Under the pieces are notes generated by a model. It did not search any database. It was not told the origin of the DNA and was given only the letters and a program-made list of their open reading frames with translations. The translations under genes and the position numbers were made by a program. 64,000 nt of DNA. Origin: Prevotella sp. (GTDB lineage Bacteria > Bacteroidota > Bacteroidia > Bacteroidales > Bacteroidaceae). The stretch lies in assembly GCA_017557405.1 (NCBI GenBank), contig JAFYYV010000035.1, positions 1-64,000 on the forward strand. The letters are read 5' to 3'. This document shows positions 9,501 to 49,823 of the stretch, one piece after another. Each line of letters begins with the position of its first letter. Position 1 is the first letter of the stretch.

Positions 9501-9810
9501 GGGTGACTCGAAGAATTGGGTTTGTAGCGATATGTATATTCAGGATGGCAGCTACCTACGTCTGAAGAACATCACACTCGGCTACACATTGCCTCGCAAC
9601 TTGACCAACCGCATTGGTATTAGCCGTCTGCGCCTCTTTGCCCGCGCCGAGAATCTCTTCACTTGGACCAAGTACTGGGGATTCGACCCCGAAATCGGTG
9701 CCGGATGGGACAACGACTCTCAGAAGCATAGAACAGAGGTTACTGGCGTTGACTACGGTGTTTATCCGCAGGCTCGCACCTTTACACTTGGATTCAATAT
9801 CTCTTTGTAA
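6595..9810 (+). CDS. SusC-like TonB-dependent glycan transporter (beta-glucan locus)
   Basis: A 1071-residue SusC-family outer-membrane receptor. In order: signal peptide (to SAQ), a carboxypeptidase-regulatory-like domain (RNFTGVVVDNDNEPVMGASV, residues 23-95), the plug with VVVIGYGVQKKSVVTASI and the conserved LYIIDGMP and VLKDAASGAIYGARAANGVI segments, then a 22-strand-type barrel ending in a final aromatic strand (TFTLGFNISL). It imports oligosaccharides captured by the SusD partner using TonB energy. It is the first gene of a tightly packed operon with SusD, a glycan-binding lipoprotein, GH16 and GH3, which points to beta-1,3 or mixed-linkage glucan as substrate. Confidence 0.95.
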   Translation: MKKSRYLMMVLALLLSITASAQKRNFTGVVVDNDNEPVMGASVVQKGTSNGSITDFDGNFSVSVEPGATLVISYVGYVTQEVQAANNMRIVLTPDDKTLGEVVVIGYGVQKKSVVTASIAKVSADDLDGKTRLRAEDALKGMAAGVNVTSASGQPGSKSMIRIRGIGTINSSEPLYIIDGMPTDQNGMESVNPGDIESIEVLKDAASGAIYGARAANGVILVTTKKGKAGKAQINYNFSYGWQSAWKKRDVTGATDYAILQNERRVQNGMAPLYNDPYNLTDANGDAITGFGTNWQDLLFNDNAPIVQHDVSVSGASEKVNYYLSLGYFDQEGIVGGNFGQSNYDRLTIRSNNQFNLFDDSKERNFLNKLDLGANLSYMRVHNTGVSDNSTWGSPLGSALYLAPTLPVTLRGQIAQDMIDRYSAYDLYTDAAGNPYTIPGFIGSYQEQNNPIAMMQGNPNKNWSHKFMPKFSLDLQLWDELKYHFTYSAELSFWGYDGATLQKYYLSGNNNSDHTQATAYKGNNSTWQIENTLTYDKTFGKHTIGVVLGQSALKTKGDELGGSHWNLVNTEKPSINYTTGGALELSTDADGKVTGAKSLIGVWGGPYTEHRLASLFARLSYNFDEKYMFQATIRRDGSSRFGSNNKYGTFPSFSVGWNVMNEDFMANTRDWLTNLKLRASWGKNGNDNIGDFAYTTLTATGGSSNYYFGQTAAMTYGSKANRLANEDLKWEESEQTNLGVDFGFWNNQLTFSVDYFLKKTNGMIIDMPIPSYVGEQRPLANVGDMENSGWEFELGYKWNIADARFGVKANASYLHNELKNLGNDTGFLNYGISQFADGGTRAENGQPFPFFYGYKTNGILQNQAEADAYNAQYGTTSKPGDFRFVDTNGDNKISSDDRTNIGNGVPDWSFGFNFDAEWKGFDLSVFFQGVSGVDVFDATYRQDIASGNYPTWILQRWTGEGTSNTVPTLGDSKNWVCSDMYIQDGSYLRLKNITLGYTLPRNLTNRIGISRLRLFARAENLFTWTKYWGFDPEIGAGWDNDSQKHRTEVTGVDYGVYPQARTFTLGFNISL

Positions 9811-9811
9811 T

Positions 9812-9914
9812 GCATAATTTATAATACATAATTCATAATAAGATGAAACAGATTATTTCAAATATAAAACTGATGCGACGCCCATTATGCATTATGCATT
9901 ATGCATTGTGCATG
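9812..9914. repeat. Inverted 7-bp-unit arms straddling the susD start
   Basis: The left arm (9812-9839) is four units GCATAAT, TTATAAT, ACATAAT, TCATAAT, ending in AAG just before the ATG. The right arm (9883-9910) is CATTATG three times plus CATTGTG, the inverse orientation. The enclosed 43 bp holds the start codon and first residues of the SusD protein. The layout resembles the arms of elements A-D on a smaller scale. Confidence 0.6.
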
Positions 9915-11448: not shown

Positions 11449-13875
11449 ATGAACAAGATATATCAATTATTCTGCGCAGGTTTAGTAGGATGTGCTATCA
11501 GCGCATCGTTAATGGCCTGTTCGCCTGACAGTTTCGAGGGCGCCGATCCCAACGGCATACCAACTGTTGAAGGCGTGGACTTCCAAATGAATGTTGATCA
11601 GGAGACGAACCAAATGGTGGCTACTTTTACACCACAGGCTGGTGTTTATCCCATCTGGATTCTCGATGGAACAACATACTCAACCCTCCCAGAGGTGGGT
11701 TATAAAAACTCCGAGGCTGGTACGCATACCGTCGAATTGAAACTCGGCAACCGCAACGGTTTCAGTCAGGGTAGTGTGAAAAAGGTATATACCTTTAATG
11801 AGACGAAGATAGACTATTCCTCTGATTTCCGTAAGATTACTGGTAAGGAATGGCGTTTTGCTAATAAGGAAGTGGCTCACCTCGCTTGTGGTCCCGCAGG
11901 AACAGCAGGAACAGAATGGTGGTCTGCCCAACCTGATGATAAGAAAGGTTTTGGTATGTACGACGACCGTATCACTTTCACAGCCGATACCCGAAAAGGC
12001 GGTACCTTCAATTACAACGCTGGAGAGGATGGTTTGACATATGTGAATACTGGTACTACGAAATGGGGGCATCAGGATGTAGATTGGGATGCTACCATTG
12101 GCAACCAAACCTCTTCATGGAGTTTCGAAGTCTATGAGTGGGCAGATGCTGATGGAAATGTCACCTCGCAGACCTATATCCAACTGGCTCCTAATACAGC
12201 TTTCCCATATATCAGTTCAGATGTTCAGTACGAAGATCCTAAGTTCCGTATTGAGACGCTCACAGCAAAGAAATTGGTGCTTGTTTATGAAACTCCCGAC
12301 CGCAGTATTGCTTGGCGTTTCATCTTTACGAGTGAGGAAGCTGAAAAGGAATGGAGTGGCTTCGATCCGAACAGCCAGTTCAATATGTGGAAAGGCATTA
12401 CACCTGTTATGTCATTCTACTATAATCCAGATCCAGGTTGGGGCAACGAGCAGACTGATGCCTTCGCAGCCCTCTTCAAGATGGGAGACAACGACTATAG
12501 CGTAACTGTACCAGAACAGTGCTACTCGGAGTGGCAGGCACAGGTACATTTCCACACCAATCTTGTAACATCTGCAGCCAACAATTACGACTTCTCTTGC
12601 ATCCTTAATAGTGATCGAGACATCGATGGTGTAGTGATTAAACTGACCAACGAGGACGATTCGGAGGCTATCATAGATGCTCATGATGTGAACTTGAAGG
12701 CTGGCGAGGACTACATATTCTGGGTGAGCGATGTTACTGGCAAGGACCTCAACCCTGTGAAGCTTGTACTTGACTTTGGACATGCAACGGGTGAAACAAA
12801 CATCAGCATCACCGATGTCGTGCTGAAGAATCATGCCGACGATGATGGTACAGTTCCGCCATCAGATGAGCCCGTTAATCCCGATACGCCTGTTATGGAT
12901 TGGGACTACAATTCTGCCAGCAACCTTTGGAAGGCTGTTGACGACGGTTCTGCATTCGATGCTTTCGGGTATTGGTTCGCTGATAACAGTTGGACCCAGA
13001 TTGAGAATTCGGAAGCCACTCATAGCGGTGACACCTATGAGATCACCCTTCCTGAGGGTATGGGCGGTTCACAATGGCAAGGTCAGTTCCACATCGATAC
13101 CAAGCTCATAGCAAGCGCATCAAAAGCCTACAACTTCTATATGGTGATGGAAGCCGACAACGATTGTCCGCAAGTGACCATCAAGTTGACCGATGCTGGC
13201 GACACCAACTTCTTCTGTGAAGGACGCCACGACATCAAAGCTGACGAACCGTTCATCTTCAAATTGACGGGAGCAACTTTGAAGGATGGTGTTGATGCAA
13301 CAGCTATTCGTCTGTTCTTCGACTTTGGTGGTTCTCCTGCTGGTACTCACGTAAAGATCAGTAAGATCTATTTCGAAGAGGCAGTTTCCATCAACTACGA
13401 CGATGCTGACAACCTTTGGAAGGCCGTTGATGACGGTTCTGCATTCGACAGTTTCGGCTATTGGTTTGCTGATAACAGTTGGACTCAAATTGAGAATTCA
13501 GAGTGTGTCCACAGCGGTGACACTTATGAGATTGTCCTTCCTGAAGGAATGGGTGGCTCGCAGTGGCAGGGTCAATTCCACATTGACACCAAGCTCACCG
13601 CTTCTGCTTCCAAGCAGTATCATGTACAGTTGGTAATGGAGGCTGAAGCAGATCTGCCTCAAGTTACCTTCAAGCTCACTGACTCTGGTGACTCGAACTT
13701 CTTCTTCGAGCAGCGTATTGATGTACCTGCTGACGAGCCATACGTACTCACTTGGAAGAATTTGACTTTGAAAGATGGTGTAGATGCTTCAGCTCTTCGC
13801 TTCTTCTTCGACTTTGGTGGTTCGCCTGGTGGGACGAAGGTGAAAATCAGTAAGATTGTCTTTAAAGAGGCTTAA
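11449..13875 (+). CDS. Multimodular surface glycan-binding lipoprotein (SusE/SGBP-like)
   Basis: An 808-residue lipoprotein in the SusE/SusF position. Lipobox SASLMAC, then an N-terminal domain of beta-sandwich or PKD type (about 30-300), then three tandem modules of about 165 residues beginning near 305, 483 and 648. Modules 2 and 3 are almost identical (both have NLWKAVDDGSAFD, GYWFADNSWTQIENSE and WQGQFHIDTKL); module 1 is a diverged copy (WKGITPV, WQAQVHFHTNL). The conserved Trp and Phe residues suggest carbohydrate-binding jelly-rolls. It sits between SusD and GH16 (3-bp gap), so it probably holds beta-glucan at the cell surface. No enzyme motif is visible. Confidence 0.88.
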   Translation: MNKIYQLFCAGLVGCAISASLMACSPDSFEGADPNGIPTVEGVDFQMNVDQETNQMVATFTPQAGVYPIWILDGTTYSTLPEVGYKNSEAGTHTVELKLGNRNGFSQGSVKKVYTFNETKIDYSSDFRKITGKEWRFANKEVAHLACGPAGTAGTEWWSAQPDDKKGFGMYDDRITFTADTRKGGTFNYNAGEDGLTYVNTGTTKWGHQDVDWDATIGNQTSSWSFEVYEWADADGNVTSQTYIQLAPNTAFPYISSDVQYEDPKFRIETLTAKKLVLVYETPDRSIAWRFIFTSEEAEKEWSGFDPNSQFNMWKGITPVMSFYYNPDPGWGNEQTDAFAALFKMGDNDYSVTVPEQCYSEWQAQVHFHTNLVTSAANNYDFSCILNSDRDIDGVVIKLTNEDDSEAIIDAHDVNLKAGEDYIFWVSDVTGKDLNPVKLVLDFGHATGETNISITDVVLKNHADDDGTVPPSDEPVNPDTPVMDWDYNSASNLWKAVDDGSAFDAFGYWFADNSWTQIENSEATHSGDTYEITLPEGMGGSQWQGQFHIDTKLIASASKAYNFYMVMEADNDCPQVTIKLTDAGDTNFFCEGRHDIKADEPFIFKLTGATLKDGVDATAIRLFFDFGGSPAGTHVKISKIYFEEAVSINYDDADNLWKAVDDGSAFDSFGYWFADNSWTQIENSECVHSGDTYEIVLPEGMGGSQWQGQFHIDTKLTASASKQYHVQLVMEAEADLPQVTFKLTDSGDSNFFFEQRIDVPADEPYVLTWKNLTLKDGVDASALRFFFDFGGSPGGTKVKISKIVFKEA
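12895..13872 (+). repeat. Tandem duplication of about 490 bp inside the glycan-binding gene
   Basis: Sequence from about 12895 to 13385 is repeated from about 13390 to 13872 with high nucleotide similarity (for example the segments coding AVDDGSAFD and ADNSWTQIENSE), indicating recent duplication of a whole binding module. Confidence 0.75.
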
Positions 13876-24077: not shown

Positions 24078-25088
24078 ATGGATTTATTACAACAGATTGT
24101 TGCGCGTGCTAAGTCGAACAAGCAGCGCATTGTGCTCCCCGAAGCCACTGAGGAGCGCACTCTGACAGCCGCCGACCGTGTAATAGGTGACGATGTCGCC
24201 GACATCATTCTCATTGGCAACCCAGCCGAAGTGTATGCTTTGGCCGACAAACTGGGATTGAAGAACATCCGCAAGGCCACTCTCATCGACCCCGAAAACA
24301 ATCCGAAGAGCGAGGAGTATGCCCAGTTGCTGGCCGAGCTTCGCAAGAAGAAGGGAATGACCATTGAGCAGGCTCGCGAACTGGTGAAGAACCCTCTCTA
24401 TCTGGGTTGCATGATCATCAAGACCGAGGGTGCCGACGGTCAGATTTCAGGTGCTCTCTCCACGACGGGCGACACATTGCGTCCTGCCCTCCAGATCATC
24501 AAGTGCGCTCCTGGCATCACTTGCGTCAGTGGTGGTTTGCTGCTCATCTCGAAAGAGAAGCAGTATGGTGAGAACGGTGTGCTTGTGGTGGGCGATGTGG
24601 CTGTTACGCCGATGCCCGATGCTGAGCAGTTGTCGCAGATTGCTGTCTGCACGGCACAGACTGCTAAGAGTGTGGCTGGCTTCGCTGAGCCTCGCGTGGC
24701 CATGCTGAGTTTCTCCACGAAGGGAAGTGCCAAGCACGAGGTGGTTGACAAGGTGATCGAGGCTACCCGTTTGGCTAAGGAGAAGGCTCCCGACCTGAAG
24801 ATTGATGGTGAGTTGCAGGCCGATGCCGCATTGGTTCCCTCAGTAGGTCAGAAAAAGGCTCCTGGCTGCGAGATTGCAGGTAAGGCCAACGTGCTGGTGT
24901 TCCCCAATCTGGAAGTGGGAAACATTGGTTACAAGCTGGTGCAACGTCTTGGTGATGCCATCGCTATTGGCCCCGTCCTTCAAGGTATCGCTCGCCCCGT
25001 GAACGACCTCTCTCGCGGTTGTTCGGTCGATGACATCTATTATATGGTGGCCATCACGGCTTGTCAAGCCATTGACGCAAAGCGTTAA
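24078..25088 (+). CDS. pta: Phosphate acetyltransferase
   Basis: A 336-residue short-form Pta, converting acetyl-CoA and phosphate to acetyl phosphate. It lacks the N-terminal DRTGG and P-loop domains of the E. coli enzyme and corresponds to the catalytic domain alone. Visible family segments: IVLPEATEERTLTAADRV, GALSTTGDTLRPALQIIK, PRVAMLSFSTKGSAKH and ELQADAALVP. With AckA it makes acetate and ATP in fermentation. The stop codon TAA (25086-25088) is itself the first base triplet of the left arm of the repeat element that separates it from ackA. Confidence 0.95.
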   Translation: MDLLQQIVARAKSNKQRIVLPEATEERTLTAADRVIGDDVADIILIGNPAEVYALADKLGLKNIRKATLIDPENNPKSEEYAQLLAELRKKKGMTIEQARELVKNPLYLGCMIIKTEGADGQISGALSTTGDTLRPALQIIKCAPGITCVSGGLLLISKEKQYGENGVLVVGDVAVTPMPDAEQLSQIAVCTAQTAKSVAGFAEPRVAMLSFSTKGSAKHEVVDKVIEATRLAKEKAPDLKIDGELQADAALVPSVGQKKAPGCEIAGKANVLVFPNLEVGNIGYKLVQRLGDAIAIGPVLQGIARPVNDLSRGCSVDDIYYMVAITACQAIDAKR

Positions 25089-25552
25089 AGTGAAAAGTGA
25101 AGAGTGAAAAGTGAAAAATCCCGTTTCATGTACGAGAACGAGAATTCTATTTTGATGGAGAAGTCACAAGGGTTCGCCTTGCGAATTGCAACGATGGCTG
25201 AATATTTGACTAACAATCGGAATAAGGTTTTTCGTTCTTTATATGAACAGGTTCTCAGGTCAGGGACGTCAATTATGGCAAACGTCAGAGAGTCACAATT
25301 TGCTCATTCGCCAGCTGATTTTGTTTCAAAACTCCAAATCGCCCTTAAAGAAGCAAACGAGACGAGAGGGTGGTTGCGCCTATTACACGGCAAATCAATC
25401 ATTACAGATAAGGAATATGATAGCATGTTAGCTGATTGTTCGGAAATAGTGGCGATTCTCGTAGCCTCAATTAAGACAGCAAAAAGAAATAATAATCAAT
25501 GAAAGATGTAAAAGTGAAATTGTTCGTTTTTCACTTTTCGTTTTTCACTTTA
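25086..25552. mobile_element. Element D: inverted GTGAAAA arms around a four-helix-bundle gene
   Basis: The left arm (25086-25119) is TAAAGTGAAAA followed by 7-bp units (GTGAAGA, GTGAAAA, GTGAAAA). The right arm (25526-25552) is the inverse of the same design with one unit fewer. They enclose the gene at 25128-25502 and nothing else. Pta and ackA are normally adjacent, so the whole 467-bp block looks like an insertion that landed exactly at the pta stop and just before the ackA ribosome-binding region. Confidence 0.65.
25128..25502 (+). CDS. Four-helix-bundle protein (23S rRNA intervening-sequence type)
   Basis: A 124-residue, all-helical protein of the family first seen in 23S rRNA intervening sequences (IVP/S23), structurally related to the Avd accessory protein of diversity-generating retroelements. 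Diagnostic segments are FALRIATMAEYL, EQVLRSGTSIMANVRES, FVSKLQIALKEANETRGWLRLL and CSEIVAILVASIKTAK. Function is unknown. It sits between pta and ackA, bounded by inverted arms of GTGAAAA units. The start at 25128 is preferred over one inside the left arm at 25104. A possible role is nucleic-acid binding linked to mobility of the surrounding repeat; that is inference. Confidence 0.85.
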   Translation: MYENENSILMEKSQGFALRIATMAEYLTNNRNKVFRSLYEQVLRSGTSIMANVRESQFAHSPADFVSKLQIALKEANETRGWLRLLHGKSIITDKEYDSMLADCSEIVAILVASIKTAKRNNNQ

Positions 25553-25563
25553 AAATTTGAAGA

Positions 25564-26793
25564 ATGAAAATTTTAGTTCTAAACTGCGGTAGCAGTTCCA
25601 TTAAGTACAAACTTTACAACATGGACGACGAGTCCGTGTTGGCACAGGGCGGTGTGGAGCGCATCGGTCTTGACAACGCCTTCTTGAAACTCACATTGCC
25701 CAACGATGAGAAGAAAATACTGATGCACGACATGCCCGACCACAAGGAGGGTGTGAACTTTGTGTTCCAGACCTTGCTCAACGAAGAGTATGGTGCCATC
25801 AAGAGCCTCGATGAAATAGATGCAGTGGGTCACCGCATCGTGCAAGGTGGCGACCTTTTCGAAAAGAGTTGTCTTGTGAACGAGGGTGTCGAGGCAGGCA
25901 TCGAGAGCCTCTGCGACCTGGCTCCTGTTCACAATGCCGGCCACTTGAAGGGCATTCGTGCCGTTGACCACCTGATGCCTACGGTGCCTCAGGTGACAGT
26001 CTTCGACAACGCCTTCCATTCCACAATGCCCGCACATGCTTATCTTTATGCTGTTCCCTACGAGCTTTACGAGAAATACCACGTGCGTCGTTATGGATTC
26101 CACGGAACCTCCCATCGCTACGTGTCGCATCGTGTAGCCGAACTGATGGGCAAGGACATCAAGGACTTGAAGATCATTACCTGCCATATCGGCAACGGTG
26201 CCTCGGTGGCAGCCATCAAGGACGGCAAGGTGATCGACACCTCAATGGGATTGACTCCCTTGGCTGGCGTGATGATGGGAAGCCGTTCGGGCGATATCGA
26301 TGCCAGTGCCGTTACCTATATCATGGACAAGCTACATCTGCAGCCCCAGGAGATGGCCGACTTTCTGAACAAGAAGAGCGGTGTGCTCGGCATTACGGGC
26401 ATCTCGAGCGATATGCGCGATATCGAGGAGGCAGCCAAGAATGGCAACGAGCGTGCTCAGTTGGCGCTCCGCATGTACAACTATCGCATCAAGAAATACA
26501 TCGGTTCCTATGCTGCTGCTATGGGTGGTGTTGATGTCATTGTGTGGACGGCCGGAGTGGGAGAGAACCAGATTTCCACTCGCCTCGAAGCCTGCTCGGG
26601 CTTGGAGTTCTTGGGTGTGAAAATGGACGCCGAGGCCAACAACTGCCGCGGTCAGGAGAGACTGATTTCTGCCCCCGACTCGAAGGTTCAGGTTTGGGTA
26701 GTGCCCACCGATGAAGAAATCGTCATCGCTCGCGACACAATGGAAATCGTCTTGAACCAAGAACCCACTGACGAAGAGGAAGTTGAAGTCTAG
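25564..26793 (+). CDS. ackA: Acetate kinase
   Basis: A 409-residue acetate kinase making ATP and acetate from acetyl phosphate. Motifs: ILVLNCGSSSIKYKLY (phosphate 1), YGFHGTSHRYVS, TCHIGNGASVAAIKDG, GLTPLAGVMMGSRSGDID and WTAGVGENQ. The C-terminus carries an acidic tail (EPTDEEEVEV). It works with Pta, from which it is separated by the four-helix-bundle element. It is followed by a strong terminator. Confidence 0.96.
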   Translation: MKILVLNCGSSSIKYKLYNMDDESVLAQGGVERIGLDNAFLKLTLPNDEKKILMHDMPDHKEGVNFVFQTLLNEEYGAIKSLDEIDAVGHRIVQGGDLFEKSCLVNEGVEAGIESLCDLAPVHNAGHLKGIRAVDHLMPTVPQVTVFDNAFHSTMPAHAYLYAVPYELYEKYHVRRYGFHGTSHRYVSHRVAELMGKDIKDLKIITCHIGNGASVAAIKDGKVIDTSMGLTPLAGVMMGSRSGDIDASAVTYIMDKLHLQPQEMADFLNKKSGVLGITGISSDMRDIEEAAKNGNERAQLALRMYNYRIKKYIGSYAAAMGGVDVIVWTAGVGENQISTRLEACSGLEFLGVKMDAEANNCRGQERLISAPDSKVQVWVVPTDEEIVIARDTMEIVLNQEPTDEEEVEV

Positions 26794-26867: not shown

Positions 26868-26977
26868 TTGAAAACCTCAAAGACCCCTTTTGAGGACGTC
26901 ATTGCATAGCTTTGAGTCCGTCATTCCATAGCTATGACCACCCCATTGCATAGCTTTGACCGGCAAATGATTTTGTT
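26868..26977. repeat. 22-bp period array next to element B
   Basis: TTGA-type unit starts occur at 26868, 26890, 26912, 26934 and 26956, exactly 22 bp apart. Three units end in CATAGCT (TTGCATAGCT, TTCCATAGCT, TTGCATAGCT). The last unit runs into the left arm of element B. Confidence 0.75.
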
Positions 26978-27164
26978 ACTTTGTTACATTGTTACAATGT
27001 TACATTAAGCGTAAGCGATGTGCACGGAAGAGAGATAGTAGTATACTACTATATATATAATAATATAATATATTATATAATATTAACATACCATTGCCAC
27101 TTTTTGGGGAACTTGAGAGGTGGAAGACTCTTAATGTAACAATGTAACAAAGTAACATTGTAAC
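26975..27164. mobile_element. Inverted-arm repeat element B (190 bp)
   Basis: Left arm 26975-27009: GTTACTTT, GTTACATT, GTTACAAT, GTTACATT, AAG. Right arm 27130-27164, read on the other strand: GTTACAAT, GTTACTTT, GTTACATT, GTTACATT, AAG. Both arms use the same 8-bp unit in a different order. The core has a perfect 16-bp palindrome at 27036-27051 (TAGTAGTATACTACTA) and an AT-rich near-palindrome at 27061-27085. Read in reverse, the core shares TTCCACCTCT and TGCACAT with elements A and C. It lies between the convergent ackA and sugar kinase genes. Confidence 0.75.
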
Positions 27165-49250: not shown

Positions 49251-49525
49251 AAGTTATAATTTGAAACCACTTTTCAACCTTGATTTTAGTGCTCGATTTT
49301 CGCGGTTTTGAGTTCGTAAAATTGTGATTTCGCAAGTTTTTTAGGGGTTCATTCGGTCAATCACCCCCTTGTTTTCGCTCCTTACACCCCCCGTTTTTCA
49401 CACCATTTTTTACCACTTACGATTTGCAACCTATACATCCAATCCAACTTCTTCCACTTTTATCTACATCAAACGAGAGGGCAAACTTTTTGAGAACAAT
49501 CAAATCTGTCAATTGAATCAGAAAA

Positions 49526-49755
49526 ATGCTACATGCTACATGCTACATGCTACATTAAGGTAGTTTCCATTTTTCTGAGATGAGATTTGTATTTTAAATT
49601 GACAGATTTGATGGGGTGAAATTAATGGAGTGTAATAATAGTAATTTTATTATAATATATAATGTATTATATATTATAATAACTTATAGGTAGAGAGGGC
49701 TCTTCTGCACATGCTAAGGTACCTTAATGTAGCATGTAGCATGTAGCATGTAGCA
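49526..49755. mobile_element. Inverted-arm repeat element C (230 bp)
   Basis: The left arm (49526-49560) is four ATGCTAC units ending ATTAAGG; the right arm (49722-49755) is its exact inverse (34 of 34). The core has a perfect AT palindrome (49649-49663 with 49666-49680), TTCCAT near the left arm, and CTCTTCTGCACAT then a TACCTTAATGT boundary near the right arm, aligning with elements A and B. A further inverted pair (AATTGACAGATTTG at 49597-49610 and its inverse at 49501-49514) brackets the left arm. No ORF is inside. It lies between the convergent susD and araC-type genes. Confidence 0.78.
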
Positions 49756-49823
49756 ATTGCCCTCTTACTATTTAACACATTTCACACTACTCGGAAAATT
49801 TTGGTCTTTCCGCTAACTTCGTT

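Follow-up and report, generated by a model that had tools for sequence, protein, structure and literature searches.

Introduction

S23p/IVP and GxxExxY proteins are common and, to our knowledge, have no established function; the latter are named as PD-(D/E)XK nuclease-superfamily proteins. In RAYT/REP elements (REPtrons, REPINs), inverted repeats lie on either side of a gene, and relatives that lack the gene occur at other places. The closest described setting of an S23p/IVP gene is the 23S rRNA intervening sequence (IVS), in which, according to the accessible part of the source, the protein is encoded within a stem that is cut by RNase III (PMC4990558). The same text describes a Xanthomonas relative as a homopentamer, and in the Coxiella burnetii IVS it places two or three tandem GACAGAT heptamers, together with a degenerate one, before an open reading frame (ORF) described as undergoing reductive evolution (PMC4990558). 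In the excerpts available, IVP genes are further reported within CRISPR-Cas operons, e.g., between cmr3 and cmr2 (PMC3936711), and as part of insertions into the rRNA of CPR bacteria (PMC11270868), locations that are consistent with tolerant sites in transcribed regions. Arrays of the heptamer TAACTGA are described in Beggiatoaceae, Cyanobacteria and Bacteroidetes, where they are intergenic and close to start codons; the terms "four helix" and "GxxExxY" are absent from the portion of that text at hand (PMC4679880).

Here, we describe a four-helix-bundle gene of the IVP type in Prevotella sp. and the inverted arms of iterated units that accompany its family.

Results

The DNA analysed here, referred to as the window, comprises 64,000 nucleotides of Prevotella sp. 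(contig JAFYYV010000035.1, positions 1 to 64,000). The bundle gene is placed between two host genes of the plus strand, the upstream pta (24078–25088; PF01515, E 8.7e-120) and the downstream ackA (25564–26793; PF00871, E 1.8e-154), with inverted 35-nt arms of 7-bp units on both sides, an arrangement that an earlier note had described and that is borne out. The left arm (25085–25119, plus strand) is a tandem array (TRF: period 7, 4.4 copies, 25087–25117) in contact with the stop codon of pta, which ends at 25088. The right arm (25519–25553, minus strand) consists of inverted tandem units, for which TRF calls a period of 7 at 25523–25546 and also a period of 14; the TRF evidence for this arm spans 25523–25551. 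The unit GTGAAAA, proposed for both arms, holds for the left one, composed of GTGAAAA and GTGAAGA; the right one is mixed rather than pure, with GTGAAAA alternating with ACGAAAA in the minus-strand reading and partly forming a 14-bp dimer. By inverted-repeat search, the arms are 83% complementary and 399 nt apart. One extra unit of opposite sense at the right arm gives rise to a small 10-bp hairpin (25510–25538) that is 100% complementary. The word GTGAAAA alone is not clearly over-represented in the window, with 16 matches against 12 expected and a count of 16 attained by 10 of 100 shuffles. The inverted arrangement does stand out: at the arm score used below, it is found for 1 of 60 window ORFs of at least 150 aa, real or chance. 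Elsewhere in the window, a 489-bp unit is repeated 1.9 times (74% match) at 12921–13856 within an 808-aa ORF.

The sole gene inside the element (25128–25502, plus strand) belongs to PF05635 (75 bits; cut-off 33.8) and to the 23S rRNA IVP family TIGR02436 (89 bits). Its stop codon lies at 25500–25502, and the ATG at 25128, giving 124 aa, was adopted as the start in place of the GTG at 25104 of the mechanical ORF list. The AlphaFold2 model (residues 2–124) consists of four helices with a mean pLDDT of 94, and Foldseek aligns it with 2rld (TM 0.83–0.87), 2gsc (0.74–0.80), 8ub7 (0.71–0.77) and the Avd structure 4dwl (0.71–0.77, a clear match by TM-score in spite of a weak E-value of 0.02 or more). 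The predicted fold is S23p/Avd-like, in agreement with the earlier assignment of the protein to the 23S rRNA IVS type with a likeness to Avd. The solved relatives 2rld and 2gsc contain five chains each. The bundle protein is under strong purifying selection, i.e., it is in use: dN/dS is 0.03–0.10 wherever dS is finite, which applies to five of ten pairs, and three of these five are near saturation. This sets it apart from the Coxiella IVS ORF, for which the available text describes reductive evolution.

Like a 23S rRNA IVS, the window element encodes an S23p/IVP-family protein in a loop closed by complementary ends. In contrast to it, the element occupies an operon spacer (pta/ackA) rather than an rRNA gene, Rfam gives no match at gathering threshold anywhere in the window, and both arms are arrays with locus-specific unit letters. 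With RAYT/REP elements it shares a gene, inverted repeats and gene-less relatives, a comparison of how such systems work only; it has no HUH (Y1) transposase, and its arms are tandem arrays with free letters instead of fixed palindromes. Intergenic tandem heptamers near start codons also recall the TAACTGA arrays, although those are described, in the text available, as direct repeats of a single word (PMC4679880). The likeness to diversity-generating retroelements lies in the four-helix fold of Avd, but no reverse transcriptase is found beside the bundle gene, and the sole PF00078 match of the genome is on another contig (C28) than the window (C23). Of 100 genus genomes, 48 have a PF00078 match and average 3.19 bundle copies, compared with 3.44 copies in the other 52 (p 0.46), and one genome (G028) has 15 TIGR02436 matches and zero PF00078 matches. 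A reverse-transcriptase partner was rejected because the presence of PF00078 does not track bundle copy number, the 52 genomes without a match having no fewer copies. No partner enzyme of movement was found for the elements.

Arms across loci and phyla

The genome of the window has eight PF05635 matches, namely six stand-alone genes and two domains within larger open frames, one of the two below the family cut-off. Five of the six stand-alone genes have inverted 7–8 bp arrays on both flanks, with different letters each time; at the sixth (L001), arrays occur in the surroundings, but no well-matched pair of arms adjoins the gene. Alongside the partial domains in larger frames (L007, L008), no such arms are visible.

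The arms accompany the gene family across loci and phyla. We scored them as the best local match between the 200 nt upstream of a gene and the reverse complement of the 200 nt downstream, with a threshold of at least 16 chosen by us, leaving out loci with short flanks. Of the 78 bundle genes from the genus, 62 have matched inverted arms, compared with 17 of 394 control ORFs, the latter being mechanical ORFs rather than proven genes and including some neighbours of elements; in direct orientation, 5 of the 78 reach the score. In a cross-phylum set of 80 loci (Chloroflexi, Planctomycetota, Acidobacteria, Poribacteria and others), 39 of 82 bundle genes have arms, with the window's own clade under-sampled because the loci were picked by a single peptide pattern. 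GxxExxY (TIGR04256) genes of the genus carry inverted arms in 24 of 35 cases; 18 of the 35 flanks also match in direct orientation, and these flanks therefore contain direct repeats as well. A phylum-wide sample gives 16 of 30 bundle genes and 22 of 30 GxxExxY genes with arms, with mismatched arm pairs at 3.1% and 8.5%, respectively. These counts contradict the alternative, raised in the earlier note, that homologues generally lack such flanks. With 330-nt flanks and a harsher null, in which left and right arms are drawn from different loci of the same set, the 95th percentile is exceeded by 30 of 42 genus bundle loci and the 99th by only 13; the corresponding numbers are 27 and 22 of 31 for GxxExxY, and 48 and 26 of 80 for the cross-phylum loci. 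Two loci of ~3.3 kb (L137, L151) each hold a bundle gene together with a GxxExxY gene, and the two element kinds can therefore cluster.

Unit length is tied to protein family and clade, and unit letters vary from locus to locus, yet are common to both arms of one locus. In a lag analysis of the aligned arms, bundle genes give self-match peaks at lags 7 (echoed at 14) and 8, GxxExxY genes peak at 9 (echoed at 18), and control ORFs are flat. Among the 62 genus bundle loci with arms, the unit measures 7 bp in 29, 8 in 20 and 9–10 in 9, whereas it is 9 in 19 of 26 GxxExxY loci. Phylum-wide, 12 of 16 bundle loci have 7-bp units, and the 22 GxxExxY loci have units of 9 (8 loci), 10 (8 loci) and 8 or 11 (6 loci). 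On a tree of 52 of the 62 bundle proteins, the length class changes 8 times, whereas 1000 shuffles average 21.6 changes and never fall below 15; seven pta-ackA orthologues and three proteins with a period of 5 or 6 were left out. The tree still contained other same-site groups; tree and pair counts include related loci and are non-independent. Most members of the window's own clade have 7-bp units of the GTGAAGA/ATGTTGA type.

The pta-ackA junction and possible movement

At the pta-ackA junction, the element is not ancestral. From 100 genus genomes, 98 of them with an ackA match, 90 junctions were taken and 88 were readable. By thresholds of our own, 12 of these hold a bundle gene, 5 a GxxExxY gene, 18 a gene-less hairpin and 21 an array, and 32 are plain, so that a single junction alternates between gene-bearing, gene-less, array and plain states across the genus. 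The earlier note had suggested looking for empty sites in close relatives; many of the spacers read measure 14–45 bp. It had also allowed for an ancestral, conserved order of pta, bundle gene and ackA, which is contradicted by the 12 occupied junctions and by at least nine changes in bundle-gene presence on a pta tree of 87 rows. The closest ackA relatives, both at 92%, carry a plain 43-bp spacer (L010) and a 55-bp array (L011). One junction (L083) retains the right arm and a decayed bundle gene, with 17 residues at 94% identity to that of L013; gene loss inside the arms therefore does happen. Another (L069) has a short hairpin without gene remnant; by eye, it is similar to the arms found in L036 and L037, its neighbours on the tree. 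In L105 and L098, GTGAAGA-type units follow the pta stop and precede a GxxExxY element (by eye), as if a second element had arrived beside an older one.

The arms could alternatively be arrays of operators that put the element's own operon under the control of the bundle protein, the gene being a small domesticated regulator. Such a role would suit the partnerless arrays that relatives carry ahead of ackA (at our threshold, 21 of 88 junctions) and the regulatory function proposed, in the accessible text, for heptamer arrays before start codons in Beggiatoaceae (PMC4679880). We nevertheless consider it very improbable, as the patchy presence at one junction and the occurrence of relatives at unrelated sites suit a selfish element better.

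Partnerless arrays directly before ackA were seen at L071, L075, L077, L086, L099, L100, L102, L106, L112, L117 and L119, by eye in left-arm sense; this sense carries no claim because purine content does not separate these arrays from plain spacers. At seven further junctions (L090, L093, L096, L115, L121, L124, L127), the gene-less inverted repeats are GC-rich and contain runs of C or G, apparently forming another family.

Related elements also occur at unrelated sites. Among 94 bundle-protein pairs of at least 60% identity, 59 lie between unrelated neighbours, as judged by the testable flanks, including copies within one cluster of one genome, and 35 share a site. For GxxExxY, 26 of 40 such pairs occupy different sites, 12 the same site, and 2 are unassigned. 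In the GxxExxY pair L286/L143 (protein 93%, DNA 81%), gene and array pieces align and the flanks do not. Related elements at different sites therefore point to transposition, transfer or both. The element may be mobile, with the protein possibly taking part in its movement. No single transposition event was caught among the loci compared, and no target duplication was found at pta-ackA, where the spacers of relatives are unalike and no empty junction is alignable base by base. The closest bundle copies (L244/L249, 97%) share one local cluster.

Between co-directional neighbours, 125 of 130 bundle loci run with the operon and 5 against it; for GxxExxY loci, the numbers are 39 and 4 of 43. Neighbours do not point one way at 32 bundle and 12 GxxExxY loci, and the count sets aside loci having a neighbour of uncertain call (6 and 1) or short flanks (25 and 12). 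This bias would be expected from either a need for host transcription or entry by an RNA route.

Likeness of the two arms

The arms could serve RNA only: a stem cut by RNase III would free the bundle message from the operon, and complementarity would be selected through that stem. In favour of this, 23S rRNA intervening sequences are cut in such a manner, according to the part of the source available (PMC4990558), the predicted sense-RNA fold of the window element pairs the arms with each other (z -3.6), and the loci run with rather than against the operon (125 versus 5). We compared arm mismatches that are G-U-compatible in the sense RNA with those for which such pairing is possible solely in the antisense RNA, a test run here without a positive control. 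The sense class is no commoner (116 versus 111, 54 versus 67, 48 versus 57), and a looser alignment gives 181 versus 195, 134 versus 170 (p 0.045, in the wrong direction for a sense stem) and 80 versus 93. Given this lack of a G-U bias, transcript pairing is probably not the keeper of arm likeness, and selection on an RNA stem was rejected in that role on the basis of this test. Moreover, an RNA stem leaves the tandem units, the family-specific unit length and the rewriting of arrays in gene-less copies unexplained; overall, we regard an RNA-only role as unlikely.

The absent wobble asymmetry would also fit arms that are mutational by-products of replication slippage and template switching across a hairpin, with ordinary host genes located there by chance. 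Slippage and template switching produce such features as register-exact copying, the dimer amplified in the right arm and, at 25510–25538, one additional unit in inverted sense. By-products alone are nonetheless a distinctly doubtful account, since arms occur at both gene families far more often than at control ORFs, unit length goes with protein family and clade, even at unrelated sites, and pure slippage gives no reason for lengths of 7, 8 or 9–10.

Comparisons of loci indicate how often the arms change together. In 25 same-site bundle pairs (the 29 with scored arms minus L241/L244, L040/L047, L043/L047 and L272/L274), within-locus likeness exceeds between-species likeness in 19, with means of 0.66 and 0.58. 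A per-column test of 15 pairs (14 bundle and 1 GxxExxY, with overlapping members and some at different sites) yields 24 concerted, 21 arm-specific, 3 swapped, 90 other, 414 same and 288 gapped columns. Concerted and arm-specific columns are about equally frequent, and homogenisation is therefore slow or episodic. The close same-site pair L048/L051 has 8 arm-specific columns and 0 concerted ones.

Gene-less elements of the window

The window further contains four gene-less inverted-array hairpins: A (1436–1585) with 8-bp units, B (26975–27164) with 8-bp units TTGTTACA, C (49524–49758) with 7-bp units ATGCTAC, and D (9804–9913) with 7-bp units. Elements A–C have a common interior of their own, and no ORF of at least 120 aa is found inside them. 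A tblastn search of A, B, C and D with the bundle proteins of the genus detected no gene remnant (E up to 0.01). The earlier proposal that A–C are gene-less derivatives of the bundle element was rejected on these grounds.

Element C is a member of a multicopy family, with ~39 places in its own genome (merged by us from 64 matches, E up to 0.01), often at contig ends. At 1e-5, C matches at least 9 of 100 genus genomes, its own included, the others mostly through short core matches; among the matches listed, the family appears to be largely confined to its own species. A and B were assigned to it by their arms and shared inner boxes, and the search with C as query listed neither. Units of the family, 7 or 8 bp in length, include ATGCTAC, ATGTTAC, TTGCAACA, TTGTTACA, AGTGACAA and TATAACAT, and are the same or nearly so on both sides of each copy. 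In 15 two-armed copies including A and B (the 19 analysed minus L289, L307, L311 and L314), the inner 24 nt of the arms agree to 94.7% within a copy and to 54.6% between copies (permutation p 1e-4). A scripted repeat with all 19 gene-less copies, in which L307 gives only a short palindrome, yields 0.87 within and 0.35 between (p 1e-4). In the 63 copy pairs whose interiors align over at least 100 nt, likeness amounts to 78.7% for interiors and 58.6% for arms. With arms alike within copies and unlike between them, and with interiors more alike than arms, whole arrays are therefore rewritten together.

A 22-bp unit with the core GTCATTGCATAGCTTTGA is repeated 3.2 times after ackA (26889–26959), and much the same core is seen near window position 1620 and beside L293 and L296, i.e., alongside gene-less elements.

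Discussion

We lean towards reading the gene and its two arms as one compact selfish element, an operon-dwelling relative of the 23S rRNA intervening sequences. Such an element would reside mostly in spacers of transcribed operons and read the same way as its host operon, a position in which a stem-loop of the mRNA may do little harm. Its arms would be kept alike by DNA-level copying, from arm to arm and unit by unit, by way of a folded-back or slipped intermediate, rather than by selection on an RNA stem. The protein, S23p/Avd-like in fold and pentameric in a solved relative, may bind the iterated units or their hairpin and thereby protect, process or copy the element, and GxxExxY could play an equivalent role with a 9–10-bp unit.

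More tentatively, these elements may form part of a wider class of iterated-arm elements with at least three interiors, namely bundle, GxxExxY and gene-less. Their ends would be arrays rewritten as a whole, with one unit copied along an arm and mirrored in the other, and with the protein acting as the ruler of unit length; the 23S rRNA IVS would represent a branch that landed in rRNA. The arms as a family trait are not described in the portions of the IVP and heptamer-array literature compared. Among the titles and abstract openings searched, none links such arms to TIGR02436 or TIGR04256 genes, which is weak evidence of novelty, with subscription papers mostly outside the scope.

The recurrence of this layout in many bacteria suggests a type of selfish DNA element that is widespread but has hardly been described. 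It is unusual for mobile DNA to have ends that are free in letters but constant in length and symmetry. A link between whole protein families and arms with a fixed unit length offers S23p/IVP and GxxExxY proteins a concrete, testable substrate. It would place the 23S rRNA intervening sequences inside a larger element class, and could account for part of the heptamer and nonamer arrays scattered over bacterial genomes.
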